Source: Dentipellis sp. KUC8613 (Eukaryota; Basidiomycota; Agaricomycetes; Russulales; Hericiaceae). Taken from it: a DNA stretch of 64,000 nucleotides. Shown piece after piece: positions 5,296 to 59,455 of this stretch. The position numbers and the translations under genes were made by a program. The notes under the pieces are model-generated. The model was not told where the DNA came from. It worked only from the letters and a program-made list of their open reading frames with translations, and did not search any database. Within the stretch, counting starts at the first letter, position 1, and each line of letters begins with the position of its first letter. Location of the stretch: contig NSJX01000049.1 of assembly GCA_002286715.1 (NCBI GenBank), positions 33,385 to 97,384 of the forward strand, given 5' to 3'.

Positions 5296-7218
5296 ATGCA
5301 GCATATTTTCGACCAGCCCAGCGGAAATGGCGAGCCCTCCATGCTCGAAACGCCGCAGCGTCACGCGTAAGTTCTGACAAGCCTTTGTCATATCCCAAAG
5401 CCTGATAAGCTCGTAGCTTAATGGCGGCCTCGAGCCTTTCTGACCGTCCGTATGACCGTTATTCTTTCAGTCGTGTAGGCAATTCGCGGCTTGCCGAAGG
5501 AGGGGCGCGGTCCTCTACTCCGCCGCAACTTGAAACCCAGTACCAGGATAATCTCGTGCGACTAGGGCCAGGAGTTTTTCCGTTTCCCCATTCTCTCTCA
5601 CAGCCTTCAACGACTACACAGGCGCCTCACTTACCATACACTTCTTCTTCACGTCATGCGCTTTCAGTCGCCTTCGAACAAACTGCGCTTATCGTCCCTC
5701 CGTCAACGGGTTCTGCTCCTGGGACCCCTTCTGCGACAGATTTCATATTGCCTGTCCCGCCCCCAGCGAATGTTCGGATGTCATCTGAAGCGATACACGC
5801 TGCAGTTACTCCGTTTGCGTCACAGGTCGTTCCTTCGACACCTCAGGGATCTTCAGCATGGGGGTATGCACACCAGCCCGTTGGATATTGTGAGCCCCCC
5901 TCAGGCTCGGATGGACAGCGTCCACACTGCGAGCATGGTCTAGTCCCCACAGACAAGGATGTTGATAATCTGTATGCGTTCTTCTACAACGACCACGGAT
6001 GGCTGCCGCCTCATGCCGTGTCTTCTTACTCTTCCCTGGCGGGCGCTTTATCCGAACCTGGCCCTCCAACTTCTCGCGCTGTACATCCGCTTCAAGAGGC
6101 CATCGGCGGTTTGCAGGCCGCCACCACTCATGAGACGTCATCGCGCAAGCTCCCACCTCCCTCTACACCAGTCGCTCTGCCATTCCGTTCATCTGTCCAC
6201 CTCGATCAAGACCGGGGACAGTTGCAGATGACGACGAGCGCCGTCACCCCGATGTCCGCTGGACCTTCGCCGTCCAGGAAGCGCAAATCCACTGCGCCGC
6301 CATCCGGTGGAACAGAGCACGACGAAAAGCGAGCAAGACGGCGAAACAAACGCAGGACGAAGGGAAAGGAAACGGCTGTAGAGCCCGAGCCAGAATCTGG
6401 GTCTGCAGAGGCCATACGGTCCAGGAAGCGCAGGGATCACAACAAGGGCATGATTCATGCTCTATACGACGGAGTTGCGGGGTTCATCAAACTTGATCCG
6501 CTCGAGACACTAAGCCTTGACGACGTGCTCCAGCTAAGTATGTCGTCCTGCTTTTTAAGATACGCTCACCTTTATTTACGTCTCGCTTTCAGCCGTCGAT
6601 TTTCTCAAGTCCCGGAAGGAAATGGAACTGCAAAGGGATGAGGAGGTGCAAGCGCTGCGGGATGCTTTAAGAGAGGCGAGGTCGCAACTACGACCTGACG
6701 ATACGCACAGGGAGAGGATACCGCTCGACTGGGCAAGTTCACAGGAACAGGTCAAGATCAAGATGAAAGAATCAGAGACGTTGAGAGCTGCCCTTGGGGC
6801 CAAGACTGTGGAGTCACAGCAGAACGGGGAGAAGGTGGGGCGGATTGAGGAGGAGGCACGTCGGAATGGAGAGGATGCACATTTCAATGCAGAGGAGGCG
6901 CGGTGCAATGCAGAGAAGGACCAGAGAAACGATGAAGAGGCCCAGAGGAAGGCCAAGGAATCTCAACGACATGCCGAAGAGACTCGAAGGAATGCCGACA
7001 GAACAAGCAAGAGCGCACAGGAAGTGCAACAAATCGAAAGACGCGCGCGACAATTCGAAGCAGAATCACAGCGATACAAGATACAAGCACAACAGTCCCA
7101 GGGCTTGGCCGAACATTATTCGGACCTATTGATGCGGAAGGAGCACGAACTAGCATCCGTCCGAGCTGTACTGCAACGCTACCAGGAAACATTCGGCAAA
7201 CTCTCCATGGCTGAATGA
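5296..7218 (+). CDS. L1: long disordered bHLH-like/coiled-coil protein
   Basis: Three exons: 5296-5366 (71 nt), 5417-6537 and 6593-7218, with introns GTAAGT..GTAG and GTATGT..TTCAG. The product is 605 residues starting MQHIFDQPSG. Residues 25-340 are Ser/Pro/Thr-rich and probably disordered, with the marker YSFSRVGN. A nuclear-localisation-like KRK/RRNKRR region follows. Then comes a conserved segment: basic RSRKRRDHNK, helix GMIHALYDGVAGF, loop around LDPLETLS, and helix DDVLQLTVDFLKSRK, which is cut by the phase-1 intron. The rest is a long coiled coil with repeated EEARRNGE / EEAQRKAKE units. The layout resembles a basic helix-loop-helix-zipper, but the match is by eye. The stop lies 111 bp from the stop of convergent S1. 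L1 and L7 are the two fully intact L genes here. Confidence 0.75.
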
Positions 7219-7329
7219 GATAACGACGGTTTTCTTCATAGCGAGCGATGCATGCTGTATTAATCATTCATGGTCATATATCATATGATATTGCTTCCTT
7301 GTCTCTACGTGCAGCTTCTTTGTCTCATC

Positions 7330-8183
7330 TCAGGAATGCCTGCGCCGTAGATCATCCCCGAGTTTACGGACATCCCGTCGAATTTGGCGAACTCCCTCGC
7401 AGTATGCATTGACACGGTGCCCCAGATTGTAGACTTGAGTGGTGTACTCGTGAGTTATCCTCTTTTCCTCGTCGAGTTCTTGTCTGCGTTGATCGAGTCG
7501 CTGGCTGTTTTCATGGTTCAGTCGTGCGCATCTGTCATTCGACTCTTTGTGATCCCTGTTGGCTTGTCCCCATGCATCGAGATACTGCCCCCATGCTTTG
7601 ATGCGCTGGGCAGTCGCCTCATTCTGCTGGGCAGTCTTCGCGTTCAATTGTTTGGTTTTCTTGTTCATTTCTTCTGTTTCCTTGTTCATTTCTTCGACTT
7701 TCTCGGTCAGCTTGGCAGTCCGAGCGATCGACTCCTCGTATTCCTTGAAATCTTGCGCTAGTCCATCGACCGAGTCCACATATACACGACACAGGCGTGC
7801 ATACTCTTCCGCAGCTTCTCTGTTGCGCCTCCGCTCCTCAGTCCAACGCTCGAGTTCTTGGCGCTCTTTAGAGAGAGTGGCCCAGAATTCTGCATCTTTG
7901 CGATACTGTTATGGCGGGTGAGCAGCTATCTATATAAAACATGAAGATTGTCCTACCTTCTCCTCTAGCTGCTCCTTGACACTCGGAATGAGGCTTTTCC
8001 TTGGTGGGCTGTGGGGACATGCATTATTTACACACCCTTGGACTTTTGTCGTTGGTTACGCAGTACGTACCTTGCCGATCGGGAACTCTTCCGGGCCTTT
8101 GAAGCACGCCTGCGATAACGAGCAGGGGGCGGGTCCACCGGCGGACGCTTACACACAGCCGCTGGTGGAGCCAAGGTCGCCAT
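7330..8183 (-). CDS. S1: small basic/coiled-coil protein, convergent partner of L1
   Basis: Three exons: 8183-8071, 8008-7957 and 7905-7330, with introns GTACGT..CACAG and GTAGGA..AACAG; all phases agree. The product is about 246 residues starting MATLAPPAAVCKRPPVD. The basic segment RYRRRASKARKSSRSA is followed by a long coiled coil containing the heptad-like run EEMNKETEEMNKKTKQ. The C-terminus is Arg-rich (RQIRRDVRKLGDDLRRRHS). It shares with other S proteins the M(A/P)T start, the basic N-terminus, the intron plan and the Arg-rich tail. An in-frame ATG at 8210 is a less likely start. Family and function are unknown. Position and coiled coil suggest, as inference only, that it pairs with the L1 product. 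Confidence 0.7.
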
Positions 8184-8869
8184 CGGTTCGATCTTCGAAT
8201 GAGTCTGCACTCAGGCAATATTCTTTCTTGGTCAGCTACACGTCGAAATGAAGCGAAGAGTGTCAGATTGCGAAATAGGTCGTGAAGACGAATGTACCCT
8301 GAGAACGTGATGGCAGGTGTCGAATATGCACGAGTAGACCAGAAAATAAAGAAGCTTATATATGAAAAGACAGGCTCACCTATTGGGGGACAAAGAGAAG
8401 ATACAAATGAGGCATGCGACGCAGTAAGAGAACAAGACATACCTATCGTAGACACCCTCCACAACTTTCCCATCATTACTACCCAGCACCTGGATAGGCC
8501 ATACGAGTAGTAATATGAGCGAATACCTGAGCCATTTGTATCGCGCGATAGAGGACGCTTCGAGTAATACTGTCTTTCTGCCGTTATTCCAAAAGAAGCC
8601 TACACGCACCTATTGCTGCTTGCAGGCGTGCGAGCTATGCTGAAATGTTGTCTCCGATGAATTACACTTCCACCACAGATACAAGCCGTGCAGATTAATC
8701 TTCTGGATAGAAAGAGTCTGGAGACCGTTGAAGTTTGCATGAAAGGACACCGTCGCGAGTGGCGACGGACTCCAAGCCCAAGACGCGAATTGCGGCGGCC
8801 CGCGCGGCCCGGGCTTTGACAAACCCGTTCATTGAAGTTATGATTCGTACTCTACCTCAATAAATACAG
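8184..8869. promoter_or_regulatory. Upstream region of S1
   Basis: No gene seen. GGACAAAGAGA (8389-8399) lies about 210 bp upstream of the S1 start, the position where S7-S9 carry ACAAAGGG. On the minus strand it is followed by a donor-like GTGAGC, so it may lie in a spliced 5' leader. GC-rich GGCC/CCGG words occur at about 8785-8815, at the border of the lipase fragment. Confidence 0.35.
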
Positions 8870-9790
8870 CGACCCCACATACGGCCGCATCCCAGCCAGC
8901 CTACCTGTTCACCACGACCGAGCCAGGAAAGGATTGTAACAGCCCCTCATTATGCAACTTGCGACTCAGAGCGATAGTGAAGCGCTCCAAGTTCAAGCCC
9001 GTCTCCAAATCTTCTTCACCCCCTTCTCTTTCTCATCCATCTCTACATTTTCCTTGTATCCAGCCTTGTTTTTCTATCAGACCCTAACACAATGCCAACG
9101 CCTCCACCGGGATCTACTCCACAACACAATCAAACGCCGCGGACCATCGATCCGTCGATCAGTTCAGCACATTTTCCTGCTCCCGCTCACTTTCTGCCCC
9201 TCCTTTCCTCAAATCCCGCCCTCTAGGTGCATACTCCCGTTTCTTCTCGCTCTGTATACTGGGACTTTTTTTGCCGCTCTGTGCGCGCGAGCCCATGCAC
9301 GCAGCGGCCCCGGTCGTCGAGGCCCTAGCGTTACCATCCCTCGCGCCCGACTCGCCCGCCTCAGCGCTGAATTCGAGCCAGCTCGCCCCGCGTAGCTCCT
9401 AGTAGATGCGCACCTCCATTGTGCCGAGCAACTCTCCTCACTGCGCACCACGCACGCTTACGAGCCCGTCGTTCCCGGTGAGCATTAGGTCATACTCTCC
9501 CTTCCCCCGCCCCCATTCCCATCTCTGCCCCCATCTTCACGTTCATGGGTAAGCGCATGCTTCTGCGCACGGTCAAACACGAGCTTGGACAGCGACAGTG
9601 GGTGTCCAGCGTTCAGCAGGCGCACGGGGGCTGCAGCGCTGAAGTAGTGCATGCGCAGGCTGCCCGGCGTGTGCGGGCTAAACTGCTTCATCAGAAAGGA
9701 TTTCGTGAGGTTTGCGAAGGCGGTCGAGTCCAAGAGCGAGAGGAGCGCTGCCGAGAGAGCATGGGAGAGCATCACTGCACGTTACGCTCA
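8870..9790 (-). pseudogene. Decayed 3' fragment of the lipase gene (copy 1)
   Basis: The reverse strand matches the last exon and 3' flank of the intact lipase at 28357-30479. Examples are ACTTGCGACTCAGAGCGA at the stop-proximal end and a translated stretch SFLMKQFSPHTP, corresponding to AFLTEHFNPRTP in the lipase. It has many frameshifts, no 5' exons and no catalytic region. The homology ends near 9765, after which the sequence is shared with the flank of S3. The fragment was therefore duplicated together with an S gene. Confidence 0.7.
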
Positions 9791-10334: not shown

Positions 10335-11031
10335 ATGGCCACTCCCAATTCCCCTCCCGATTCTACAATTCAGTCTACAGTCGCATCGCCTGCTCTTGCT
10401 CGCCGACGCCCAAACGAGCGCCCAAAGGGTTCCCTACCGACGTATTCAAGGCCGCAGACATATCGGTCACAAAACCCTCCACATGCTCTGCGGACCAGCT
10501 CTCTGTTGACAGGCAGATATCTCAGCAAGGGTACTAAGGACGTACTTTCACGGCAGGTACGTCATATGTATTGCCATTCTTAGACGTGATCCTCATTTAA
10601 CATACCAGCACGGTGTTGACGACGAAACCAAACAAGTACCGAAACGGCCTGAGGACGTACGCGACGGATTACGCGAAGATACCCAGGATGTCCTCGATTT
10701 CTTCAGCAACTTGGCAGAGCGTACGTGTGCTGTATATAACATACTAACGAGGACTGACATGACTATGAAAGGCTCCATCTATCTAAGACAAAGGGCGGAG
10801 AAAGCCAGTGACGATATAACCAAGGAGCGTGAAAGATTTCAGGGAATCGTGAGGGAAGAACTCGGTAAGATGGACCAGAACAGTAAAAATATCGAAAAAG
10901 GATTTCAGGATTATGATCAGATGGTCAGTGAATTCGAAAGCCTCAAGAAAGCGAAGGCACAGGAGATCCACACGTCCCGGACTGCGTACCGCGATCTCCG
11001 GCGGGAGGGTCGACGGGCTGCACCACGGTAA
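10335..11031 (+). CDS. S2: small basic/coiled-coil protein
   Basis: Three exons: 10335-10556 (74 codons), 10609-10720 (112 nt) and 10772-11031, with introns GTACGT..ACCAG and GTACGT..GAAAG. The product is about 197 residues. It begins MATPNSPPDS with the basic block ARRRPNERPKGSLPTYSR. The middle, HGVDDETKQVPKRPEDV, leads into a coiled coil, and the end is YRDLRREGRRAAPR. S3-S6 share the start, exon sizes and tail. The chosen frame is the one conserved in all five copies; an overlapping longer frame in the leader is not conserved. The stop is about 80 bp from the expected end of the convergent L2 remnant. Function unknown. Confidence 0.7.
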
Positions 11032-11099: not shown

Positions 11100-11712
11100 T
11101 AATCCCAGGTATATACTGCTGTCGGTGACCGTAACTCTGGCACTGTTGCAATTTAGCTCGTGTAGAAAGAAGTTTGCGCTGCAGCTCTGCCGCTAGGTCC
11201 ACGTGCTGCAATCCTTCGACTTCACATTGCCTCTTCTGCTCCGTTCTAATTTGCAACGCGATTCTAGTTCTTTCCAACTCACTATTCTTTCCCTGCAGCT
11301 CGTCCACTAGGCCACCATTCTCCGTCTTAAGCCTTTGTATCTCTCTTTCGGCCTGTCCTAGTCTATGCATCGTAGTTTCAAACTCGCGGACAGTATCTTC
11401 TCCCTGTCGCTTCGCGTTGCCCAGGGCCCGTCGCAAAAGCTCCGCATCAGCGACCACCGTCTTCAGTTCGCTGATGTCCTTCTTCAACCCCTGGACTGCG
11501 TTCTTTGCTACGGACCGAAGGACGTCAGCTGTATGCCAACACATCCACAGAACCGAAACAGAACACACCTAATCTCAGCACGTCGTCGTCGGTCGGGTTC
11601 CTGTCCAACCTCGGCGACGATAACTCCGGGACTATTTCTTCGTACAGCTCCTGGAACCGCCTATGACACGAACGGAGCGACTGCAGGTTACATCGCCCTA
11701 GATTCGGTCAGA
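11100..11712 (-). pseudogene. L2: 5'-truncated L-family remnant
   Basis: The first recognisable part (11712-11569) reads LRSCHRRFQELYEEIVPEL and then NPTDDDVLRL, the L-family HLH-like signature. The phase-1 intron (11568-11529, GTGTGT..ATACAG) and the coiled coil ADVLRSVAKNAVQGLKKD onward from 11528 follow. No start codon and no Pro-rich N-terminus remain; a stop lies just upstream. At the 3' end the usual stop near KAELQ is missing, and the frame stays open on the minus strand to 10783, antisense to the last exon of S2. It is most likely non-functional. The start of homology is approximate. Confidence 0.65.
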
Positions 11713-12439: not shown

Positions 12440-13215
12440 TTCCGCGCACATACTCTACCTCAAATCCTCAATAGAACTGACTGTGGCTTCATATGTTACT
12501 GTATCCTAGCCTGCCTACCTTTTCACCATGACCAATTCATCCTCTACGGTCTCTCATTATACAACTTGCAATTCAGAGCGACATACTAGCGGAAGCACTC
12601 CAAGTCCTTGCTCGTCTCTAAATCGCTCTCGCGCTCCTTCCTCTCTACATCCTCCTTGTCGCAGCCTTGTCCTTGTCTATCCGATCCCAACCGCAATTCC
12701 AACCGATCCTCCGGGATCTCCTCCACAATCCAATCCAACCCTGCGGATGGCCGATCCGTCGGTAAGCGCAACATATCCTCCTTACCATTCCCCTCACATT
12801 CTTCCTCTTTGTCTCCTCCTTCTTTTCCTTTCCCTTCAGACCAGCACCCATGCTGCGCCGCTTCGTGCGCCCGAGCGTTTCCACGCAGCAGCCCCAATCT
12901 CCGAGGCCCTAGCACTCCTGCGCCTCGCGCCTGACATGTGCACCTTTGGATTGCCGCATCGCCCGCCTCGGCGCTGAGATGGTGCCACTCTCCCCGCTCA
13001 GCTCTTAGGGGTACACACCTCTTTTATGCCGAGAAAGTATCTTCACTGCGCACTACGCACGCTCATGAACCCGTCGTTCCCGGTGCGCATCAGCTCGTAC
13101 TCTCCCGTCAGGTTGAAGTGCTCTGTCAGAAAGGACGTCGTGGGGCTTGCGTAGGCGAACGAGTCGAAGGGCGAGAGGAGCAATGTCGTGAAGGAGGATG
13201 GGAGAGCATCACTGC
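12440..13215 (-). pseudogene. Decayed 3' fragment of the lipase gene (copy 2)
   Basis: Same relation to the lipase gene at 28357-30479 as the copy at 8870-9790. A reverse-strand stretch reads SFTTLLLSPFDSFAYA, compared with SFTTMLLSLFDSPAYA in the intact enzyme. Frames are broken several times and the catalytic exons are absent. Its border with S-gene flank near 13205 is at the same place as in copy 1, so both come from one ancestral fusion followed by duplication. Confidence 0.7.
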
Positions 13216-13782: not shown

Positions 13783-14450
13783 ATGGCTACATCCAACGGT
13801 CCACTGCATGCTCTTCATCTCCGGCGCCCGAACAAGTGCCCGAAGGGCTCACTGCCGACGTATTCAAGGCCGAAGACGTATCGGTTGCAAACACCTCCGC
13901 ATGCTCTGCGAACCAGGTCTCTGTTGAAAGATAAACCTCACGGCAAGGGCGCTGAGGGGGTGCTTTTGCGGCGGGTACGTCATGTATATTTCTCTTGTCA
14001 GATGCGGTCCTCATTCCACATACTAGTGCGGTGTTGACGATGAAACAAAACGAGTACTAACATGGTCTGCGGAAGTTTGCCAAGAATCGCGTGAAGCAGT
14101 TCGGGACAGTAGAGCCTTCTCCAGCACTTTGGTGGAATGTACGCCATACAGAATACGTCTCAGGGCATACCGTGATTGACGCAAATCTGAAAGATGGCCA
14201 TTATGCAGATCAACGTATCAAGGAACTCAAGCAGGACATAACTGAAGATACTAGAGGTTTACAAAAAAGCGAAGATGTCAGACGAGGTAGCAGCAGATCA
14301 CGCCGTGACAACAGAGAAGAAATTGGCAATGCTCCCCAGATAGCCAGTGAGTTCAAACGCGATATGAAAACCAAGACGGAGCGTCTCCATCAATCCATGG
14401 TTGCATACCGGAATCTTCGACGGGAAGGTCGACGCGCTGGCCTGCGATGA
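13783..14450 (+). CDS. S3: small basic/coiled-coil protein without L partner
   Basis: Exons 13783-13974 (64 codons), 14027-14138 (112 nt, as in S2) and 14194-14450. The product is about 186 residues starting MATSNGPLHALHLRRPNK, with KGSLPTYSRPKTYR as the basic block. The end is YRNLRREGRRAGLR. All splice phases agree and no stop interrupts. Exon 1 is 30 nt shorter than in S2, from in-frame loss in the Ser/Thr-rich part. No L gene follows within 1 kb, so this copy lost its partner or was duplicated alone. It is the sister of S2: both have a lipase fragment and the same uORF upstream. Confidence 0.65.
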
Positions 14451-15823: not shown

Positions 15824-16503
15824 ATGGCTACTCCCAATTCCCTTCCCAGTTCTACACTTCGCTCTACAGACACGTCGTCTGCTGTCCGCCGACGCCCGAA
15901 GGAGCGTCCGAAGGGTTCTCTGCAGATATATTCAAGGCCGCGGCTGTATGGGCTGCCGAGCCCTCCGTATGCTCTGCGGACCCGCTATCCATTGAAAGGT
16001 AAACCTCGTGGCAAGGGCGCTGAGGGGGTGCTTTCACGACAGGTACGTCGTGTGTATCATTATTTCTAGGCCCGATCCTCATCTAACATACCAGCGGGGT
16101 GTCGACGACGAAACAAAACAAGTACTGAAACGGTGTGAGGACTTACGCCACGGATTACACGAAGACAGCCAGGACATCCTCGATCTCTATGGAGACTTGG
16201 CGGAAGGTGTGTGAGCCATGGCATGTGTGAGGGTCTGCGTACATTACTGATGTAGCTTTGAAAGATTCCGGGCAATCACACCAAAAAGGAGAGAAACTCG
16301 TACAAAACACGGCTCAAGAGAGACAATCGTTCATAAATCAAATACATCATGATATTGAAGAGCTCAAGAAGATACAACATGATTCTCACCAAAGTACCCT
16401 TGAAACTCGCAGCTATATTAAAGAAAGGGAGCAAGAGCTCCATGAAATGCAGACTGCATTTCGGGAGCGTCGACGAGAAGATCGACAGGCTGGCCTACGA
16501 TGA
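15824..16503 (+). CDS. S4: small basic/coiled-coil protein, partner of L3
   Basis: Exons 15824-16042 (73 codons), 16095-16206 (112 nt) and 16265-16503. Introns are GTACGT..CCAG and GTGTGT..GAAAG; an alternative acceptor 9 nt upstream also keeps frame. The product starts MATPNSLPSSTLRS, has basic VRRRPKERPKGSLQIYSR and a GVDDETKQVLKR middle, and ends FRERRREDRQAGLR. A coiled coil fills exon 3. The stop is 92 bp from the stop of convergent L3. Start, exon sizes and tail agree with S2-S6. Function unknown. Confidence 0.7.
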
Positions 16504-16595: not shown

Positions 16596-18095
16596 CTATG
16601 GGCAATGAAAATGAGTACGCTGCAATTCAGCCTTCATGGATTGAAGCTCGTAGTGCAACTCTTGTTTCTCGCGCGTAAGCTGGTTGATCTGATCACTTGC
16701 CTGTCGTGCTTGAACTTGAATTTTCTGCTTCTCTTCTACACTCATCTTCCACTGGGCCCTGGATCTTTGCAACTCGCCAGCCATCATCTGCAACTCGGAT
16801 CGGGATATCTGCTCAGCCTGCTTTAGTTCGTCTTTCGTCTCCTTCAACCCTTGAACCGCAATCTTTGCTACAAATGGAAGCACTTCAGCTATATGCTAGC
16901 GCATCCACAGGATGGAAACAAACATACCTAATCTCAGCACGTCGCCATCGCTTGGATTCCTATCCATCCTCGGCGACGATAGCTCCGGGACCATTTCTTC
17001 GTACAGCTCCCGGAACCGCCTGGCCCTCCGTGCGTCTCGCAGTCTCCTGGCATGCGCGGCCGCCGGCGACTCCCCTGGTAAGGTCCGGACCTCCTCAGCT
17101 GTATCTCCAGGTCCGGCGCTCGGCTCCGTCGCCTTGCCCTTGCCCTTCTTCGTCCGCTTGACTTGGTGTTTCGTCTGCGGTTTGACCTGCGTGGCCTCGC
17201 TAGGAGGGGACGCAGAGGCTTTGCGCTTCTCGGGCCGCAGAGGTGCGGAAGTGTTGTGAGCAGCTGAGTTCGTTGCAGGTTCTGGAACGACGTCAGCACG
17301 AATACTTGAAGATGAGACTTGGGGTGGGCCTGCTTGTGGCGTAGCAGGAACGAGCAGTGGTGCTGCAGCCTCCTGCGAAAATCGCGACGTACGGGAATAG
17401 GACTGCGAAATGGATGCTGCAGTCTGGGCGCACGGGTGCGGGGCATCGCTCCCTGTATGGTCACCGTCTCCCCAAGACGTCAACAAGTCCGTCTGCGGCA
17501 AGGACCCAAAGGAAGAGTACGAGACGGCCGCATCGAAGGGTGGCGGAGGCGGAGGCATCCCCTGATACGGCAAATCTGCGTTCGCGATGGGCTGAGCCTG
17601 GTCTTGGTTGCCTGACGGGACAGCGCCTTGAGCGGACGGGTCCATCTGGGTTGTCGGAGGTGGTGGCTGCGACGTATCGTCTACAGAAAAATGGAAGACA
17701 GGAGAGGCATCTGACCTCTGTTGGTGGTAACCAGACCGATTGTCGCCAGCGGGGTAGCTTGGAGTCTGATATTCAGGATGCTCAATGTAGCCCGGAACAG
17801 GCATCGCGGGCACGTGAGACGAAACCCATGCGGGACGGAACCCGGGGAAGGCCCTTGTCGCTGGCGGAGGCAGCTGCCAGTATGGCGGGTATGGCTGCCA
17901 AGCTGTTCCTGCAGGCTGGAGTAGCGGCCGGTGACCGGGAGGAGCATAGCTTTGCGCGAGTGTACCATGGGGACGTTCGACATCCGGTACTGACGGAATC
18001 GGGCGATGCGCAGAGGGCAACACCGATGATGGGTTCGAGAGCGCACCACTCGTCGACGAAAAGGAAGTGGCAATTTCCAATGGCCGACGTTCGAG
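16596..18095 (-). CDS. L3: L-family protein lacking the usual N-terminal exons
   Basis: Exon 18095-16928 encodes a Pro/Ser-rich region (VPAMPVPGYIEH, then FHFSVDDTSQPPPP). The basic stretch KHQVKRTKKGKGK follows, then the HLH-like segment RRARRFRELYEEMVPEL, NPSDGDVLRL. The phase-1 intron 16927-16889 (GTATGT..TATAG) precedes exon 16888-16596, which begins AEVLPFVAKIAVQGLKE, is all coiled coil, and ends KAELQRTHFHCP. L4 has two more 5' exons and about 160 more residues. In L3 these are replaced by unrelated repeat sequence, and no ATG opens this frame before MPVPGY. It is either 5'-truncated or uses an unseen upstream exon. Convergent with S4. Confidence 0.6.
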
Positions 18096-18900: not shown

Positions 18901-19591
18901 ATGGCTACTCCCAATTCCTCTCCCGGTCCTACAACAAGCTCTACAGATGCATCGCCTGTTGTTGTTCGCCGACGCCCGAAGGAGCGTCCGAAAGGTTCTC
19001 TACCGATATATTCAAGGCCGGGGGCGTATAGGCGGCCGAACCCTAAGCGTGCCGTTCCGACCACCTATCCGGTGAAAGGTAAAACTCGCAGCAAGGGCGC
19101 TGAGGGTTTGCTTTCGTGCCAGGTACGTCATATGTATCATTCTTTTTGGAGACGGAACTCATTCAGCATACCAGTCTGATGATGAGGACGACACTGAACT
19201 GCTGAACCGGTCTAAGGCCTTACGCCACGAATTGTGTGAAGGTGCCCAGCGCATCCTCGACTGGAGAGACTTCGAGGAAGGTATGCCTGATCTATATAGC
19301 ATGCTTAAGGGTACTGACGTGTGTATGAAAGGTGCCAACCAATTGCAACAAGAGTTGAAGGACGTCATGGAAAATGCAGACAAAGACAGTGAAAGAGTTC
19401 AAGGAATCGTGAGGGAAGAACTCGGTAAAATAGACAAGATCAAAAAACGGCTTGCCGAAATGTATGAAGAAAGCGACCGGAAGGCCATTGAATACCGACG
19501 GCTTAGCAAAGCCCAGGATCAACAGCTCCATGAAGCCCAGGTAGAGTACCGTGAGGCTCGACGAGCGAATCGACGCGCCGGCCTGAGATGA
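18901..19591 (+). CDS. S5: small basic/coiled-coil protein, partner of L4
   Basis: Exons 18901-19122 (74 codons), 19175-19280 and 19332-19591. Introns are GTACGT..ACCAG and GTATGC..GAAAG. The product starts MATPNSSPGPTTSS. The basic block is VRRRPKERPKGSLPIYSR, the middle SDDEDDTELLNRSKALRH, and the coiled coil ends YREARRANRRAGLR. S6 is nearly the same over its first two exons. The stop is 80 bp from the L4 coiled-coil stop. Function unknown. Confidence 0.7.
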
Positions 19592-19671
19592 TACATGTCC
19601 TACATCTTATTGAACGGCGTAGTGAAATTGAAGTTGTATATATATATTCTTCGTACAAAAATTCTATAACA

Positions 19672-22133
19672 TTATGTGGGATTATGACTCCGGTACCATT
19701 GCAACTCAGCCTTCATGGAGCCAATTTCGTCGTCTAGCTGCTTCTTCTCGGCCGCGAGTCGTAAGGCTTTGTCCTTGTTCTCCGATGCTTGAGCTTTGCT
19801 TTCTTCCTTCTCTTGCATTTCGGTCTGTAACCTGACTTCAGTTCTTCCCCACTCATCGCGCGCCACCTGCAAATCGGCCGCCAGGCCGCCCTTGTCCACC
19901 TCAGACTTCTGCAGCTTCTCTTTCGTCTGCTCCAAATCAGAGCTCATTGTCTTGAGGGCGCGGCAAGCGTTTTCTTTCCGTCGTTCCGCATTGCCCAGGG
20001 CCTGCCGCAGACGCTCCAAGTTAGCAGACGCCATCTGCAACTCAGATCGGAGGTCCCGCCGGCTCTGCTTCAGTTCGCCATTCGCCTTGTTCAGTTCGTC
20101 ATTTGCCTCCTTCAGTTCATGTACCACGTTCTTAGCTATGAACCGAAGCACCTCAGTTATATATCAGCACTTCCACATAAAGAAAGATCTGGCGTACCCG
20201 ATCTCAGCACCTCGTCGTCGCTCGGGTTCCTGTCCATCCTCGGCGATGACAACTCTGTGACGACCTCAGCATACAACTCCCGAAAGCGCCGCGCCCTACG
20301 TGCTTCTCGCAGTCCCCTGACATGCGCGTTCGCCAGCGACTCGACTGGCAAGGAAGGAGCCTCCTGAATGGGGTCTTCTGGAACAGCGCTGGGCTCCGCC
20401 GCCTCGTCCTTGCCCGTGTCCGTGCGCTTGCTCGCGCGTTTGGTCAGCACTTTGGCTTGCGTAGCGTCACTAGGAGGGGATGCGGAGGCTTTGCGCTTCT
20501 CCAGCTTCGGAGGTGCAGCAGGGATCCGAACAACCGCGTTCGTTACCGCCGCCTGACGACTGGACGTGCGAGAAGGTAGTTGTGACGACCCAGGAAGCGA
20601 TGCTGTGGTGTTTGCGGCGACTCGCGAGGACTGCGGCGTAAGGGAATCCGGACGGACGGTGAACGCTACAGAATGGTATTGCGGGACCCGGCTTCTTGTA
20701 TGAAGACTGCCTCCCGCGGGTATCAATAGACCCGTCTGCGGAAAGGACCCAAAAGGAGAGTATGAGAGCGCGCCTTCCACGGGCGGAGGAAGCATCTCCT
20801 GGTGCGGTGGTTCTGCGTTCGTCGCGGACTGGGACCGATTCTGGTTCTGATTGTCTGGCAGAATAGCGCCCTGGGCCGGCGTTGCATCAGCGGAGGCCAC
20901 TGCGGGCGGCGGAGCTGTTGGCGGTGCTACGTCGTCTACAGAAAAGCGAAACACAGACGAAGCGTCGGGACTCTGTTGGGGGTAGCTAGACCAGCTGTCT
21001 GCAGAAGCGTAGTACGGAGTTTGGCTTCTGGTATTGTCGCTATAGCCTGGCATAGGCATCGCAGGCACCTGAGACAAGCCGCGCCATGCAGGAAAGTTTA
21101 CCACGGCGGTTGACGGCGGAGGCGGCTGATAGTATGACGATGGTGGCTGCAGAGCTGTTCCTGCAGGCTGAAAGGGGAGTTGATGATCGGTAGCCAAGTT
21201 CCCATGGTACAGGCCACGGGGACCATCCACGCGGGGTGTTGCAGGAATGGGACGAGGTAGCGAAGATGTCCGCTCAAGGCCTGGAGCGTCAGACGATGTA
21301 GACGAGGGTACGATGAATGCCGATGCTAGGTCCCAGAGTGCACCACCGGTTGACGAAGAGGACGTGTCGCTGACCTTCTGTGTTGGCGGAGAGAACGTCG
21401 GCGTCGCATGTACTGGTGAGGTGATTGAAGGCGCAGGGTTAGCCTTCGACGCGAGCCGTAGGGAAATTATCGACGATGCAGAAGATGCTGGACGAGATCT
21501 TGAAGCAGAGCGCGAAGGCCGCCGAAGAGAGGGAGGACGTGAGGGCGGAGCCATTGCTGTAGAAGCACCTATCGGCACATGCTGCACGGGTCCTTCTGGA
21601 GGCTGGTCTTCCGGGAGTGGGACATCTGCTCCATCGTTCTTGAAAAATCGAAGATAGGCCTCGTTCAGAGTAGGGTCGTATGATGAGCCTGAACAAAATG
21701 CCGGTCTACACCGATGTCAGTCAGATTAAAGCCTCGAAACATGAATCATCAAGACTTACAGCTGACTTGGATTCTGAAGCACACCTGAGTTCGGTAGAGC
21801 ATCCTCTCCTACAGATGGCTCGGCCACCCCTTGAAGGTGCGAAGGCAGAGCAGGGGTGTTCGGAGTAACAGAAAGCGTGCGAGGGCCAGGATATTGCTGG
21901 TAGCCGCCCTGCGGCACAGAATAGCGTATCTCTCCCGTCGGCTGTGCATATTCGGTTTGACGGATTGCATAAGGGCCCGTCGACGGACGAGGGTCTTGGC
22001 TACAGGATGGGTCGCACCGGTTACCAGATGGCGCGCCCACAGAGAAGACGATGTGTACTCACGGCCGAGACTGAGGCGCGCTGCGCGCAGAAGCTGGGTC
22101 ATGTTGATGGCTAGGATCAGAAGGCGTCTGCAT
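19672..22133 (-). CDS. L4: L-family protein with altered HLH intron
   Basis: Exon 1 is 22133-22063 (71 nt, MQTPSDPSHQ), exon 2 21999-21760, and exon 3 from 21705. Exon 3 carries YDPTLNEAYLRFFKNDG, a long Pro/Ser-rich region with VPAMPMPGYSDN and FRFSVDDV, basic KRASKRTDTGKDE, and the signature RRARRFRELYAEVVTEL with NPSDDEVLRS. The coiled-coil exon ends at 19672 (KAELQWYRSHNPT). The usual phase-1 donor (20197) remains, but the acceptor that is AG in L2 and L3 reads AA. The only pairing found that keeps frame is a weak donor GTGCTG after 20211 with acceptor CTGAG before 20151, deleting six helix residues. Without splicing the frame stops at 20157 and no coiled coil is made. Convergent with S5. 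Confidence 0.65.
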
Positions 22134-23936: not shown

Positions 23937-24621
23937 ATGGCTACTCCCAATTCTTCTCCAGGTCCCACAGCTGGCTCTACAGCTGCATCTTCTGTTCTTG
24001 TTCGCCGACGCCCGAAGGAGCGTCCGAATGGCTCTCTACCGATATATTCAAGGCCGGGGGCGTATAGGCGGCCTAAATCTAAGCGTGCCGTTCCGACCAC
24101 CTATCCGGTGAAAGGTAAAACTTGCGGCCAGGGCACTGAGGGTTTGCTGAAACGCCACGTATGTCTTGTGTATCATTCTTTTTGGAGACGGAACTCAGTC
24201 AACAGACCAGTCCGATGATGAGGACGACACAGAACTGCTGAACCGGTCAAAGGCCTTGCGCCACGAATTGCGCGAAGGTGCTCAGGACATCCTCGATTTA
24301 TGGGGAGACTTCCCGGAACGTATGTCTGATGTATATAGCATTCTCAAGGGTACTGACATGGGTATGCAAGGTGCCAGCCATTTGCGACAAGAGATGAAGG
24401 ACGCCAGGGAAGACGCAGCCAAAGAACGCGAAGAATTTCAAGAAGTAATGAGAAGAAAAGCCGACCAGATCAGAAAAAAGATTGCCGAAGAGCGTGAAGA
24501 TAGCGAGCGGAAGGCCATTGAAACCCGACGCATTAGGAAAGCCCAGGATCAGCAACGCCATCAAGCACGAACGGAGTACCGTGAGTTTCGACGGGAGGGT
24601 CGACGTGCCGGCCTTAGATGA
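23937..24621 (+). CDS. S6: small basic/coiled-coil protein, partner of L5 remnant
   Basis: Exons 23937-24158 (74 codons), 24211-24319 and 24371-24621. The introns are GTATGT..ACCAG and GTATGT..CAAG. The product starts MATPNSSPGPTAGS, with VRRRPKERPNGSLPIYSR. The middle is SDDEDDTELLNRSKALRH and the coiled coil ends YREFRREGRRAGLR. It is the sister of S5 from an S-L unit duplication. Its L partner is broken, but S6 itself has no stop or shift. Confidence 0.7.
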
Positions 24622-27806: not shown

Positions 27807-28356
27807 TCTGTTCGGCCGTTCATCGTGGACGGTGCTATTGTTGCAGGCCAAAGTAGATTCAACAAAGTGGATTCAACAGATGTGGTCAACTGTGACCCAG
27901 AGACCTGGCGGAGCCTCGCTCGAACAAAGGAAGCGGGGTTGATAGGAGCAGTCATGTGACTACGTACTACTCTCCCCGGGGCTCCCTTTCAGTTCGAGTC
28001 CCTTTGTCAACTTGATCAGTCCAGGTCAAACAGACTCTACCTGACTCTGACCAAGGGGTGGCATCTCCTCCGAATCTCACAGCCAACTTCCATTATTTAA
28101 TCCCGTGCAGGGTCGTCCTATATGGCTGGTCACCTTCAGTCTTGAATGTGGGCAGCACCTACGAGATCTTGTTTTGAACGCGCCCAGCATATAATTCGTG
28201 AGCCGCATCGAACCTTCGACAAACCCAACCCATGGCCAGCTATATAATTATAATTCACACCCATACTCTACCTCCATAAAATACAGCGGCTTCACGTATT
28301 ACTGTATCCCAGCCTGCCCACCCCGATTATTCACCATGGCCGAGCCAGCCCGTGCC

Positions 28357-49476: not shown

Positions 49477-51126
49477 ATTCTGTCTTTAATGCGGCTTGTA
49501 ATCATTGCTCGGGCGCTTTGACAGCGTCAATCTATCCATGATCATTCAACGTGTCGGATCGAAGTCTAACAGTGGTCACCTCTTGTACTTACGAACGCAT
49601 CACGGTAAAATTCTTCTGCCAGTGTGTGTGTGCCGGCGGCGGTGTTCCTGGCCGCGCCTTGGGACGCACTAAATTTCTAGATCGGTTTCTTCCGGGTGAG
49701 ATGAAGAGAAAACAGCGTTCAGGACATGCTGATATTGGGCCAGAGCCACACCATGAAGGAGGCACTGACCCATTTATTTGCCTAGTTATAGGAGATAGAA
49801 GACTTACCTCGCTGTAACTGCATATGTAGTTTGTAAAAGATCAATTGAGGTAAATCTGAGAGAAATAGGGTACTTCGACAGTGCGGATCACTACCAGCTC
49901 TCTTGCAGCGCGAAGGACGTGAAGACAGCGTTGCTACCGAAAGCGCTTGCCCGACCGCGTTGTGTCGGCGCTCAAATTTTGGAACAGCGCTCACACTCGA
50001 CGACCAACTGAAACGCGCGTGCTGCCCGATTCGCTCGAGCGCTCGTATGGTCTTCGATGTCACTTTTCAATTCTACTACACTCTGCAACGACTGTAGTGT
50101 ATACGGAAACTATGAAATCAGAATTATCACAAGCTTGTGTACTAGCGATAGGGCACACTGAGATTGAGAAAGTGAGTCACAACACATCGCACGAGTCTCG
50201 ATTTGAAGGTAACATGAACAATATAGATTCATGTGGTGGGAGCTGTTCAGATAACCTAGCCAATTCTCTGCTAGAATTCTAGCCCCTTTTCAAGCAACGA
50301 GCACATTGAAGAATTGCGGGTGGCCTGTGCCGTGCGGAAACGAGTAGAGCACAGACCCTCTCTTTGGTAACTCCTTGCGCCTTGGCACGGCTTGCGCCAT
50401 TTTGAATTCGTGAGTATGTTGTCCTCTCCACGTACGTCGTCGTCTTTAGTCTCATAACCCCAGAACTTTGGGCTGAAGCGGTCCATCGTGAGTATGATGG
50501 GCCACGTGTACACGTTCTTCGCACGAATAGAGTTTCATGCACAACTCATCCGATAACATCCGTACGTCTCTCGCCACATATTTGAACTCTCTGGATACCA
50601 CAGATATCTTATCTACTCTGCGGATCAGTATTTCTAGGCAACGTACACCTTTTTCTACATTAGGCTGTCGCCAAATTCCTCACGATGCTTACACAAACTT
50701 ATCTTGCGCGTCTAGTGTACGTAGGGCGCTTCGCTGTGCTCCGACAGTGCAAATAGCCGCATCAAGATGTGTCTACGTAGGATTCAAGCCATATTTTGTC
50801 GTTCGACACCATGTTGCGTTCGTACCAGGACCATTCGGTCTCAGGCATGTCGTTAGGAAGCTTCTATTCTACCTTGAATTGCGGATCTTCATTGGTAGCT
50901 CGCTCATTGCCCTTCCCGCGCTCGACGACGAGTCGCACGATGTACAGAGTTTGAGAGGACGTAGGTCGGTACGTCCTCTCATTGACATCCTGTCTTCCTT
51001 TGCCTCATGAATGCTCCTACAGCTAAGAACTCATCTACTTAAGATGTCTCTCGGGATGCCAATCGTGTGCGCAGATCCTTGCGCTTCAATCGCCTTCCCC
51101 TCGCGTTTCGCCCTCGTGCTTGTGGT
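49477..51126. promoter_or_regulatory. Spacer and L7 upstream region
   Basis: No gene called. At about 50705-50780 the block found upstream of L1 recurs (core gtacgtagggcgcttcgc, then 'ctccgaca'). Confidence 0.4.
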
Positions 51127-52786
51127 ATGCAGCATATCTCTGACCCATCTGCTGAGTCTGCGGCGCCCCTCGCTCCCGATACATCTCAGCGTCGAAGGTT
51201 AGTTCTACGCTTTCCAGCTGAGACATAATACCTAGCCTGACGTGCTCGCAGATCAAGAGGACACTCGAAAGTGCCCGATAATTTACGCGACCCCTACGCA
51301 TTCAGTCGTGTGGGCAATCGATTCTTCGATGCAGAAAGTGCAAGACACTGTTCTGCATCGCAAATCTCGTACCAAGAGTCTCCCGCGCCATTCACAGATT
51401 CGGGACAATGGTTTTCTCGGCCCTCGACCCCACCGGCGGCGGCAGCCCTGTCAGTGAAACCTCTTTCGACCGTGCAGTCTTCGGCGACTGTTCCATCTTT
51501 TCTTGACTGGACGCATCCTGAGCCTTCGTTTGCTCCATCAAGTCTTACATCGCCATTTGCGCAATTGCGTGCTCCACTGTCTTTCCTTCCTCCGAGGCGA
51601 CTACTGCCTTGCATCAGATCCTCATACTCGTCCTTAGCGGGCGCCCTCTCTGAAACTGGTCCTCCGGCTTCTCGCAATATACATTCATCTGGATTGCCTG
51701 TCGGGACCCATGATAAAGTCGCTTGCACCCTTATTCCGCTCGCAACGGATGGCGAGCAGCGCGATAACCCAGGCCTGCAATTCACGTTGCCGATGGGGAT
51801 CGCTGTCTCGGGCAACGCACCGACACGCGAGGTCTCGCCCCCACCTGCGCCCCCAGCTCTGGCTCCGTTCTATGGACCGTTCGATTCTTTTCCGGAGGCG
51901 GACACACCGCAGATGTCGAGCGCACTCGTTCCTGTTTCTTGCGGGCTTTCGCAGCCTCAGAAGCGCAAAGCCACGTCACCTCCGCCTGGCGAGGCAGAGC
52001 ACGTGGAGATGCAGGCTGCGTTGCATAATTGTCTGGCGACAGAGACGGGGACGACGGCAGAGCCCGAGCCCGAGCCGGAAGTCAATGGTGAGCTCGAGGG
52101 TCCTGATGAGGATACTGAAGACCCAGCGGTGGAGTCCAAAGAGGCCTTACGGTCTAGGAGGCGCAGAGGGAAAAGGAAGGATCTGATCCGCGCGTTGTAC
52201 AAAGAGGTGGAGAAATCCACCGCAGTCAAGCCGTTCGAGATGCTGACCCTCGACGAAGCAGTCCAGTTCAGTACGTGGTCTCTTGTCGCGGTATGTGCTC
52301 ACGCCTGACGCCTTGATTCTTGTCTCAGCCACCAACTTTCTCCAAAGCCGCAGGGATCTTGAGCGGCAAAAGGATGCACAGATTCAAGGCCTGCAGGCCA
52401 TATTGACGGTAGCTCAATCCGAGATAGGGGCCAGCGCATCTGGTCTGAGCGCAGTAAAGCATGAGCGAGACGCTCTATTGATGCGAACGAAGGCTGCAGA
52501 GGAAGAGGTGGAGAGGCTACGATCCATGTTGGGCGTGAAAACGGAAGAGTCGCAACGACATGCAATGGAAGCCCAAATTCGAGCACAGCAACTCGAAGCT
52601 AAGGCACAACAACTCGAACTCGAAGTCCATCGATTGCAAGCAAGACTGACACAGAGCGCAGACCAGGCAACACAGAGCGGAAATGAGTCAGTAAGTACCG
52701 GAGCCGAACTGCTGCGTTTTCCGGAGAATCTGAAGTTTAATCCCCAATTCCAGTCACTACCACAAACTTTAGAAGACCAGCGATAG
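51127..52786 (+). CDS. L7: intact L-family bHLH-like/coiled-coil protein
   Basis: Exons 51127-51197 (71 nt, as in L1 and L4), 51252-52270 and 52329-52786, giving 515 residues, starting MQHISDPSAE. YAFSRVGN matches YSFSRVGN of L1. The disordered Pro/Ser region leads to RKRKA-type basic stretches, then the conserved segment: basic RSRRRRGKRK, helix DLIRALYKEVEKS, loop around KPFEMLTL, helix DEAVQFTTNFLQSRRDLE with the phase-1 intron inside. The coiled coil contains AKAQQLELEVHRLQARL. The stop lies 61 bp from the stop of convergent S7. With L1 it is the best template for the family. DNA binding is inference. Confidence 0.75.
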
Positions 52787-52847
52787 TATGCATGCACTTT
52801 TCTGCGACGACATGCAGCATTGGCATCATTGCACAAGTTATCAGCTA

Positions 52848-53639
52848 CTATTCATTATTACTCCCTGTATGACCCTGATCTCCGGAATGCTGACTCTGTG
52901 CTTCATCCCTTACTCTACGGGCCTCTCGTCTGAGAAGTCGGCGACGTTCATTATGTGCATTGGTACGCTGCGTGCAATCCTTTGCAACTTGTCTACACTC
53001 GCCTACTGACCGTTTGCATTGATTGATCGCTTGCTCAGTCTTGTCGTATTGTTGCCTAAGCTCAGCGACTTGCACCGCTTCGCTCTTGATAGCTAGTGCG
53101 GTTGCCTTGAATTGTTGCCGCAACGCAGGCGTATGCAGTGTATTTGCCCCCATGTCTTCGACTTCTTGCGCCAGCACATGAAGCGTCCTCTCGTACGTAT
53201 CCTGCTTTTGCACAACTTTGACGTGATCTCGTTTGGCCTCCTGGACGCCGTCCGAAATATGCTGCCGCTCGCGCTTGCTGTCTTCGATTTGTTCCCACAA
53301 CTTGCTAGCTTCCCGAAGGCAGGAGGCATACACTTCGTCGTTCTTGCGACGCTGCGACGGTGAGTGAGCACTGCGTCCTAGAAGAGGAGAGAACTCAGCG
53401 CGCCTGCAGCTCTATTTGTTCATCAAGGTGTTTCTGCAGATCTAGTTTCGGTCGACTGTACGAACATCTATTAGTCCTGGTGCCTCTGCATTTTGGATAG
53501 GACTCTGTAGCACTCACCCTTTCGCTGATCGAGCTCTTTGATAGACCTTCGGACGTTCCGCGGTGCCCCTGCGACGCTGAGCAAGGCGCTGATCACCTGA
53601 GACATGCGGGAGGCCATTGGGGGTGGGTAGAGTCGGCAT
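52848..53639 (-). CDS. S7: small basic/coiled-coil protein, partner of L7
   Basis: Exons 53639-53518 (122 nt), 53455-53404 (52 nt) and 53351-52848 (168 codons with stop). The first intron is GTGAGT..ACAG. The second (53403-53352, 52 nt) has a GC donor where the S8 copy has GT; without its removal a TGA follows at once. About 225 residues: MPTLPTPNGLPHVSGD, basic LAQRRRGTAERPKVYQRA, exon 3 RRKNDEVYASCLREASK and a long coiled coil, then RLLRREARRVRDEA. N-terminal layout and LRREARR tail link it to S2-S6 (LRREGRR). Confidence 0.65.
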
Positions 53640-54162
53640 TGCTGCGGTATCTGGAGCTCAGGCGATTCTATCCGGATCCTCTGAAAAGAGTCGATGTCAA
53701 ATCCGAGACTGAACTTTTGAGAGACGTGATCTTGCGAAGCGGTCGGCTAGAATGAGCGTACCTCGGTGGTAACAGAGTCTATGCATGCCTGCAAACATAG
53801 AGACATCTTTATAAGAGTAGAGCACTCACCCATTAGGGAACAAAGGGGTGAGTCGGATGAGGACGGCATTTCGAGCAGGACTCGGAGAACAAGGCGTACT
53901 TACTACGGACATATTCCTTGTACTTTGCGTTCCCATGGTTGCTATCCTGGTCCATATTTATCACAGGTCATACTGACGACTATTCAGGAGAATGGACGAC
54001 TTCTGCAGTAGTCCTCAATTCCAACAACTGCCACAAACCTCGGAAAATTCGTGATAGTATTGAGAGCTACCTTTTTGTTCCATCCAGCTTGCAATAGTAT
54101 ATGCGACGGCATTGGCGTGAAGGACATGCATAAAATACTATATTGATCATTGCTGTGCGACT
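53640..54162. promoter_or_regulatory. S7 upstream region
   Basis: Contains ACAAAGGGG (53840-53848) about 205 bp upstream of the start, within a block repeated upstream of S8 and S9. On the minus strand it is followed by a donor-like GTGAGT, so it may belong to a 5' leader exon. Confidence 0.45.
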
Positions 54163-54948
54163 CTACTCTCCGATTTGCTGATCCCGTCTGCTCTCACTCA
54201 TTCTACGGGCCTCTCTTCTGACGAGACGCTGATGCTCGCTATTTACATTGTCACGCCGCACGAATTCCTTGGCAACTTGTTTACAATCGGCTATCGACTG
54301 CTTGCATTCGTCGATTGCTTGTCCAGTCTTCTCGTTTTGTTGCCTAAGTTTGCCGATTTGACTCGATGCGGCCTCGAACGCCAGTGCGGTCGCCTTCGGT
54401 TGCCGCTCCCATGCGTGCTCCTGCTCCTCAGCATATCGTCTATTCCGAGCATTTGTCTCCTCGAGCTCCTCGAGCCCTTGCCTGACGTCGCCGATAGCGG
54501 TATTGTGCGCGCACAGCATCTGTTCAGCTTTGTCCTGATTTCGGTTGAGCTCCTGAATGCCGTCCGAAAGACGTTGGTGCTTGCGATCGAATTCTTCGAG
54601 CCCTTCCCATATCTTGTCAAAGTTCCGAAGACAGGAGGCATACACTTCGTCGTCCTTGCGACGCTGCGGTACTCGATGAGCCCTGCGTCATCCCAGCAGC
54701 GCCGAGCATCCGACGCACCTTCAACTCCATTTGGTCATCAAGGTCTTTCTGCAGATCTCGTTGTCGACTGTACAAACGTCTATCAGTCTTGACGCTTCTG
54801 AATCTCCAACAAGATGCAGCACTTACCCTTTCGCTGATCGAGCTCTTTGATAGACCTTCGGACGTTCCGCGGTGCCCCTGCGACGCTGAGCAAGGTGCTG
54901 ATCACCTGAGACATGCGGGGGGCCATCGGGAGTGGGTGGAGTCGGCAT
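54163..54948 (-). CDS. S8: small basic/coiled-coil protein
   Basis: Exons 54948-54827 (122 nt), 54767-54719 (49 nt) and 54663-54163 (167 codons with stop). Introns GTAAGT..ACAG and GTGCGT..CGCAG are canonical. The product starts MPTPPTPDGPPHVSGD, has basic LAQRRRGTAERPKVYQRA, exon 3 RRKDDEVYASCLRNFDK, a coiled coil, and ends LVRREARRMSESRRD. The 5' half is nearly identical to S7 and S9, the 3' half diverged. No L gene lies beside it, so it arose by duplication of the S7 side only. Confidence 0.7.
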
Positions 54949-57283: not shown

Positions 57284-57955
57284 TTAAACCCCTGTTTGAT
57301 CCTGATCTCCAGAATGGTGACTCTGTGCTTCATCCCTCACTCTACGGGCCTCTCGTCTGAGAAGGCGACAACGTTCATCATATGCATTGGTATGCCGCGT
57401 TAACTCCTTGGCAGCTGCTCTGCATATACCTGTCAGCTGTTGGCATTTATTGATTTCTTGTTCAATCTTGTTGTTTTGTTGCCTAAATTCGGCGACTTGC
57501 TCCGCTTCCCATGCAGACATATGCTGTAAGTTTGCCTGCATATTCCATTTAGCCTCCTGGACGCCGTCCGAAATATGCTGCCGCTCGCGCTTGCTGTCTT
57601 CAATTTGTTCCCACAACTTGACAGCTTCCCGAAGGCAGGAGGCGTACACTTCGTCGTTCTTGCGACGCTGCGGCGGTGAGTGAGCACTGCGTCCTAGAAG
57701 AGGAGAGAACTCAGCGCGCCTGCAGCTCTATTTGTTCATCAAGGTGTTTCTGTAGATCTAGTTTCGGTCGACTGTACGAACATCTATCAGTCCTGGTGCC
57801 TCTGCATTTTGGATAGGACTCTGTAGCACTCACCCTTTCGCTGATCGAGCTCTTTGATAGACCTTCGGACGTTCCGCGGTGCCCCTGGGACGCTGAGCAA
57901 GGCGCTGATCGCCTGAGATATGCGGGAGGCCATTGGGGGTGGGTAGAGTCGGCAT
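57284..57955 (-). CDS. S9: S7 copy with internal deletion
   Basis: Exons 57955-57834 (122 nt), 57771-57720 (52 nt) and 57667-57284 (128 codons with stop). Nearly identical to S7 upstream of exon 3, including the GC donor of intron 2 (57719-57668). Exon 3 is 40 codons shorter: the coiled coil is cut after GVQEAKWNMQ and resumes near EQVAEFRQQNNKIEQ, in frame. It ends RLLRREARRVRDEAQSHHSG. Probably expressed if S7 is. No L partner is adjacent. Confidence 0.6.
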
Positions 57956-59455
57956 TGCTGCGGTATCTGCAGCTCAAGCGATTCTATCCAATCCTCTGAA
58001 AACAGTCGATGTCAAATCCGAGACTGAACTTTTGAGAGACGTGATCTTGCGAAGCGGTCAGCTAGAATAAGCGTCCCTCGGTAGTAACAGAGTCTATGCA
58101 TGCCTGCCAACACAGAGACATCCACATATGAATGGAGAGCTTACCTATCAGGGAACAAAGGGAGTGTTCGGATGAGTACGGGATCTCGAGCACGCCGCAG
58201 TAAGAGAAACAGAACAAGGTGCACTTACTATGGACGTATTCCTTGTACTTCGCATTCTCATGGTTGTTATCCTGGTCCATATTTATCACAGGTCATACTG
58301 ACGACTATTCAGGAGAATAGACGACTTCTGCAGTAGTCACCTTCGGTCTCAACGGTATAGAAGCTGAACGTGTCGTGAAAGCCGTGGCTAGGATTTGGGC
58401 GCTTAGTCAGGCCACCTGGCTGGCGTCAAATCGTTCCTCTGCCAGTGTGGCCATATGCTCACTCTCACGATGATACTCAACCACACCCGGATTCGGACTC
58501 ACACATGGAACCATAGGCATATTGAAGGCTGTCTCGTGAAGATAGGCGGTGGTGAGCGTATCTGACTTTGATCCACCCATGTCCTCCGTGTCGACTTTAG
58601 TTTTAGTTTCTGGCGTAAGTATACCGTACTTGCCGCGGCGACCTCTTCCGTTGATGAGGCAGCCCATGCTATTCTCTCATCCTTCAGGCAGTATCGGAAG
58701 AGATACCAGCTACTTCCCTGGCTCGCCTTGACCTCTCAGTTCAAGCGGGATGGCGGTGACTGGCGGGCAATAGACACGAACAGGACCCGACGCGCAAAGA
58801 GGCAGGGGGTACCGGTGGGCCGCTATGCAACTTGAACAGCACGTACCCGCCGAGAATTCTTCTGACAGCCAGTCCTCTGTCGATGGCTATGGCAGGATGG
58901 TCCTGGCCACCCCACACCAACCTAGCTTGCACGCTTCAGCAAGCCGCTAGCAACTGTGACCGGAGACTCTCGAACCGCGCTTCGTCTCCAACAGGCTTCA
59001 ATAATCTAAATGCTATGTACATGCGGTTACAGTCGGGAAGATCCTCTTTACGGATTCACGACGACGATATTTGCAATCGATAACACTAACACTGCTCTTC
59101 TTCGATATTGCTACCTATCGCGTACTCGTACAACTGACGCGCACCGCGCGGGTATACTAGTATCACCGACTCCAAGGCCTTCCTCGGGCGCATACTGCAT
59201 ATGCATAGCCTGAGTCCGCCTCCGTACGCTGCGGTCGTAGTACCAGAGCCCGCATTGCGGTCTCGGACCATCATATGCACGACAGCCGTGCAGCTGCTGC
59301 GAACGGTCGCGCGACCTAGACAAAGTCAACATCACCACAAGCTGCAAGCTACAAATTCATCGACAATGGCGTCGAGGGCCACAGCAACATGAACGGCCCC
59401 GGCACCGGCTACTAAGCGCCACGCTTTGACTCGGGTCTGAGATCTGACACTCGGG
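57956..59455. repeat. S9 upstream region
   Basis: Matches the S7 and S8 flanks to about 58340 and the S8 flank again to about 58740. ACAAAGGGA lies at 58155-58163, about 204 bp upstream of the start. 58741-59455 is unique, with no gene called. Confidence 0.5.

Follow-up and report, generated by a model that had tools for sequence, protein, structure and literature searches.

Convergent gene pairs with variable, adjoining coil-coding ends in the wood-decay fungus Dentipellis sp. KUC8613

Two unlike kinds of gene, here termed L and S, recur tail to tail in a 64,000-nucleotide stretch of DNA (the window, C116:33385-97384) from Dentipellis sp. KUC8613, a wood-decay fungus of the Russulales with a genome of 34.1 Mb in 171 contigs. 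The window holds five convergent L/S pairs and one remnant pair (S2/L2). When checked codon by codon, the distance between the two stops amounts to 111 bp for L1/S1, 92 bp for S4/L3, 80 bp for S5/L4, 81 bp for S6/L5 and 61 bp for L7/S7a, in agreement with the original prediction of convergent pairs separated by short gaps; the orientation flips that it described are likewise present. Its list of pairs was right in treating S2/L2 as a remnant, but L5 is a remnant as well, with an in-frame stop and its 5' part lost to a FunK1 gene, and S3, S7b and S7c stand without an L. The genes are arranged as follows, the term core denoting a segment that resembles a basic helix-loop-helix (bHLH).

5296..7218, + strand: L1, intact, with exons 5296-5366, 5417-6537 and 6593-7218; the second intron splits the bHLH-like core, and a long coil follows; equals NCBI P0026
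7330..8183, - strand: S1, 111 bp from L1 and tail to tail with it; exon borders putative
10335..11031, + strand: S2, three exons; NCBI P0023
10783..12059, - strand: L2 remnant, with coil and partial core (11125-11662) and an L1-like N-part with stops; the usual stop is missing, and its frame continues to 10783, beneath the end of S2
13822..14450, + strand: S3, a copy without L
15824..16503, + strand: S4
16596..18095, - strand: L3, whose protein was modelled with AlphaFold2 (AF2); NCBI P0009 covers 16599-17804, and the 5' exons are tentative
18901..19591, + strand: S5, three exons; NCBI P0013
19672..22133, - strand: L4, first exon 22133-22063 (71 nt), core at about 20199-20375, coil at about 19675-20133
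19080..19920, no strand: S5/L4 junction tract (S exons 2-3, gap, end of the L coil), with bounds picked after the similarity profile had been seen
23937..24621, + strand: S6; NCBI P0018
24703..25258, - strand: L5 remnant, a coil with an in-frame stop plus 14 core codons, cut by the FunK1 kinase gene
51127..52786, + strand: L7, exons 51127-51197, 51252-52270 and 52329-52786
52848..53617, - strand: S7a, tail-to-tail with L7 (61 bp)
54163..54926, - strand: S7b, a duplicate without L
57284..57933, - strand: S7c, a duplicate with a shortened coil, without L

The FunK1-type fungal kinase gene, at 25273-27703 (-) and with PF17667 in two pieces, adjoins L5 and takes the place of its 5' part.

Matches to L and S occur on C116, C147, C157, C88, C161 and C80, and the paired unit is found on five contigs besides the window's own. 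The DNA read comprises C116:1-137000 (N at 1-8234 and 31810-33384), the whole of C147 (N at 1-39448), C157:14001-34000 and 50001-79030 (N at 50001-53738) and C88:395001-410000, and matches outside these stretches are known by their coordinates only. C116 and C147 share pieces corresponding to C116 37.1-42.2, 48.8-51.4 and 51.5-56.9 kb, in one order and at 86-91% identity; the S2-bearing piece (C116 41.8-44.2 kb) is 86% alike in C147, but is located elsewhere there. In protein searches, which were word-limited, the relatives found all belonged to Dentipellis.

S genes can be divided into an alpha type, accompanied in the read pairs by L2-L5-like genes, and a beta type, accompanied by L1/L7-like genes. 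The read DNA holds 16 alpha-type genes with a readable 3' end (five on C116, two on C147, six on C157 and three on C88; a C147 copy at 40.0 kb that has lost its own 3' end was left out), and an L stop lies 69-92 bp away in 13 of them. As for the other three, S2 faces the L2 remnant, which has no stop there, all that faces the copy at C88:402.8k is a fragment of an L tail, and no L faces S3. Among nine beta-type genes with a coil (S1, its C147 copy, S7a-c, S8, S9 and two on C157), five have an L stop at 61-157 bp (gaps of 111, 115, 61, 157 and 132 bp), the largest gap belonging to S8(+)/L8(-), a further pair outside the window; the L opposite the C157:67.6k gene is broken, and no L lies opposite S7b, S7c or S9. 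The count excludes an S1-like fragment interrupted by stops (C147:42.7k) and, their surroundings lying outside the DNA read, the S1-like matches at C157:36.8-37.5k and 12.1k. The pairs on C161, C80 and C157:42.8/43.3k also look convergent, to judge from coordinates.

Two features of gene structure claimed earlier for L proved accurate: the first exon measures exactly 71 nt in L1, L4 and L7, and also in L8 outside the window, and a phase-1 intron occupies the same position across L, where it splits the conserved motif between the end of the loop and the start of helix 2. Our spliced L1 model is identical letter for letter to NCBI P0026, and its core reads RSRKRRDHNKGMIHALYDGV...LSLDDVLQL-TVDFLKSRKE; the spliced L4-type core reads ARRLRDARRARRFRELYDEIFTELSSPRMDRNPSDDEVLRS-AKNVVHELKEANDEL. 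The same core splice is used in six of the 12 NCBI models of L4 type (P0001, P0002, P0003, P0005, P0008 and P0009); P0004 has one extra residue, P0010 retains the intron in its reading frame, and P0006, P0007, P0011 and P0012 end shortly past it. The NCBI model of L7 (P0028) departs from ours downstream of the core.

In the AF2 model of L3, which was built from 14 sequences only, a helix at residues 210-238 is followed by a loop and by a single helix at 249-343, i.e., the order is that of a basic helix, a loop and a second helix running into the coil. The confidence measure pLDDT (predicted local distance difference test) is about 80 in part of helix 1, at least 90 in helix 2 and the coil, and mostly below 50 in residues 1-201. 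When aligned by hhalign to bHLH sequences, the combined L profile scored 28.7 (E 5.5e-5), and its two subtypes scored 24.0 and 20.9. The values for comparison were 13.2 for the reversed profile, 13.8 for bZIP and 16.9 for S, and none of 150 column shuffles exceeded 16.3. L probably represents a divergent bHLH-zipper-like protein that Pfam misses, a wording that stops at bHLH-like and does not claim a proven bHLH; it is probably nuclear. The earlier description of both families as unrecognised coiled-coil proteins was correct as to the coils and incomplete for L, which carries this helix-loop-helix-like segment ahead of its coil. L resembles bHLH-zipper proteins of the MAX/MYC type in having a basic helix, loop, helix and long coil, and the motif RKRRDH is common to L1 and MAX at the aligned place. 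Unlike them, L lacks a Pfam HLH match, has a much longer and fast-changing coil and an S gene as partner, and carries Ser in L1-type proteins at the position of a MAX Glu (the L4-type alignment is uncertain there). This Glu is the residue that reads the E-box.

S is predicted to be a small basic protein with one long terminal helix, its AF2 model being mostly below pLDDT 50 up to residue 78 and helical at 80-102 and 104-194. The original prediction took S as one family, yet the similarity between S2-S6 and S1/S7 spans 23 columns at E 0.0025, and the S genes may constitute two families.

The coils are the variable parts of L. In six L4-type genes (15 pairs), the pooled ratio of nonsynonymous to synonymous differences (pN/pS) rises from 0.29 in the core through 0.44 in the N-region to 0.99 in the coil, and the nonsynonymous rate (dN) exceeds the synonymous rate (dS) in five of the 15 pairs for the coil and in none for the N-region and core. 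The coil frames are open in all six genes, and their length differences are multiples of 7 residues. Between L1 and its C147 copy, dN and dS are 0.017 and 0.136 in the core and 0.123 and 0.196 in the coil. For S (nine genes, 36 pairs, S2 left out), exons 1 and 2 have pN/pS values of 0.57 and 0.74, respectively, and exon 3 gives 0.71 in its first part and 0.53 in its second. When the coil register is inferred from hydrophobicity, the e/g positions, which border the interface, hold 2.27 kinds of residue versus 1.80 at b/c/f in L (seven sequences, p 0.011) and 2.96 versus 2.28 in S (ten sequences, p 0.017), where a positions vary too.

The two variable ends also change together. Distances in S exon 3 and in the L coil are correlated across 14 pairs (Mantel r 0.87, p 0.0001) and within the eight pairs of L4 type (r 0.59, p 0.0018). 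At the S5/L4 unit, the near-identical copies on C116 and C147 diverge sharply over one tract of about 0.8 kb, consisting of S exons 2-3, the gap and the end of the L coil. In a profile of 150-bp steps (window coordinates), the two are 87-99% alike from 18116 to step 19016 on the S side and 89-97% alike from 20066 to step 20816, and only 71-89% alike in steps 19166 to 19916. There, the closest relative of C147 is unit b4 of C157 in five steps (89-99%) and S6/L5 in the last, and that of C116 is unit b2 of C157 or unit 3 of C88 in four steps (91-100%), unit b1 in the fifth (88%) and C147 in the last. At sites separating C116 from b4, C147 sides with C116 by 181:21 and 98:39 in the flanks and with b4 by 125:14 in the junction. 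In the reciprocal test, C116 sides with C147 by 129:9 and 85:30 in the flanks and with unit 3 of C88 by 122:32 in the junction. Because the junction bounds were fixed after the profile had been seen, the p-values of these tests should not be read literally. Farther out, the L N-region gives a mixed signal (109:85 and 104:93) and forms a second switching zone away from the junction. From these patterns, the S5/L4 junction appears to behave as an exchangeable cassette, replaced as one tract.

The pairing, the layout, the variable coils, their co-variation and the one replaced tract are best explained, at a confidence that stays just short of even, by a multi-copy array of co-duplicating L/S pairs, in which matched dimer partners would be held together by geometry and which would yield new partner specificities. 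The likeliest mechanism is that the L and S products of a cassette bind each other via their coils, and S may tune L as a partner, decoy or inhibitor. Since the genes lie tail to tail, their variable coil-coding ends are side by side, so that one conversion or recombination tract can swap both coils while keeping the pair matched; the convergent layout would thereby keep both ends within one exchange tract, and the array could generate novel partner specificities. Physical binding between L and S, DNA binding, regulation and a role in recognition are what we infer. The original suggestion that L and S work together is in this respect strengthened, as their coil-coding ends adjoin, co-vary and are apparently replaced as one tract, and its interpretation as a whole is partly supported.

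Several observations weigh against matched partners, some of which are equally those expected of an ordinary birth-and-death array, i.e., gene pairs in tandem whose coils are under weak constraint and on which exchange tracts fall anywhere, so that the junction would be uninformative on partner choice. Coil pN/pS is about 1 and not above 1, hence compatible with relaxed constraint; co-variation of the S and L coils arises partly from joint duplication alone; and L copies are broken, with S remaining open beside them, at L2, L5 and units a2, b2 and b3 of C157. The second switching zone, off the junction, also suits such an array. The S and L of unit a2 have unlike nearest relatives, and pairs can therefore be split, and the coils of S1 (dN 0.066, dS 0.191) and L3 (dN 0.019, dS 0.061) are little changed and without excess; it is because of this split pair and these two coils that the preference for matched partners remains tentative. 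Furthermore, all L/S results come from one strain. An ordinary birth-and-death array is nevertheless judged less likely than matched partners, considering that the coil frames are open in the six L4-type genes used, that coil lengths change in 7-residue steps with e/g positions varying most, and that the adjoining core is constrained (0.29).

Further points of this adverse kind concern L itself, which might not be bHLH-like. It could instead be a basic protein rich in proline and serine, with coils at its end, that perhaps serves as a scaffold, either structural or associated with chromatin. Pfam HLH (PF00010) does not match L, Foldseek returned nothing useful for it, and although the combined L profile placed MAX first among PDB sequences, with TAL1 lower down, this match was marginal (E 0.15) and vanished with the two L sub-profiles, neither of which found a bHLH such as MAX there; the Ser aligned to the MAX Glu in L1-type proteins points the same way. 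The reversed L profile, used as a control, found no bHLH in the PDB. Against a scaffold stand the predicted helix-loop-helix-coil order and the profile comparison with its controls, and we give this reading about one chance in four.

Among known systems, the HD1/HD2 homeodomain (HD) mating pairs of basidiomycetes come closest to L/S, as they likewise consist of two unlike adjoining genes whose touching ends encode variable parts. The dissimilar region of C. heveanensis SXI1/SXI2 is described as the 5' ends, which encode the dimerisation ends (PMC2873909), and HD N-termini as variable and mediating heterodimerisation (PMC8686365). In L/S, too, variable ends adjoin, here the coil-coding 3' ends, which are most divergent between C116 and C147, dimerisation being presumed; the genes are convergent, with touching 3' ends, rather than divergent, and exist in many copies. 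By analogy, the L/S geometry would mirror the head-to-head arrangement of HD1/HD2. No homeodomain appeared when L and S were scanned with Pfam; PF05920 matches in the genome lie on C95 and at C88:38k, and homeodomain and STE3 matches lie elsewhere than L/S. The likely homeodomain and pheromone-receptor mating loci are at C95:562228-571236 and C1:2327903-2347652, each clustered on one contig. That L/S forms a second, bHLH-based partner-recognition system of Dentipellis apart from the homeodomain mating genes, with a tail-to-tail swappable specificity cassette in which one exchange would swap both matched coils and so yield a new specificity at a stroke, is a bolder proposal that we consider rather improbable.

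In wtf spore killers, both products come from one gene, unlike L/S, which comprises two convergent genes with coils. The wtf and Spok families are reported to be multi-copy, fast-changing and lineage-restricted and to undergo inter-copy exchange, as L/S does. A selfish pair of this poison-antidote type, in which one product harms, the other rescues and swapping both ends makes new matched pairs, would fit the rapid change, the restriction to one genus, the many and partly broken copies and the exchange among them, as reported for wtf drivers, but is very doubtful, given that the L layout is bHLH-like and probably nuclear and that S is often open where L is broken, which would require S to be harmless or the antidote.

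Few self/nonself recognition genes beyond mating are known in mushrooms, and a genus-restricted array whose touching ends encode co-varying, apparently jointly replaced coils is a concrete candidate for a partner-choice system. It also suggests a general prediction, namely that the orientation of genes in recognition pairs follows which protein ends hold specificity. New here are the probable bHLH-zipper-like layout of L, the variable coils, the co-variation of S and L coils and the apparent exchange of the junction tract.

The remainder of the window contains several other genes. Two tandem copies from a different small gene family, whose end looks helical, lie at 2-644 and 1435-1941 (-), are 75% alike over 469 nt and were not matched to S. 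The start of a 2-oxoglutarate dioxygenase-like gene (DIOX_N) follows at 2737-3180 (+). An open reading frame at 28357-29778 (region 28200-29300) shows a weak esterase/lipase-like match, and two decayed-looking partial copies of it, 64-67% alike with one short piece at 85%, lie amid the S/L units at 8848-9750 and 12485-13204. Finally, a VTS1-like gene with a SAM domain is found at 34805-36457 (+), in a stretch that is present once in full in the genome.

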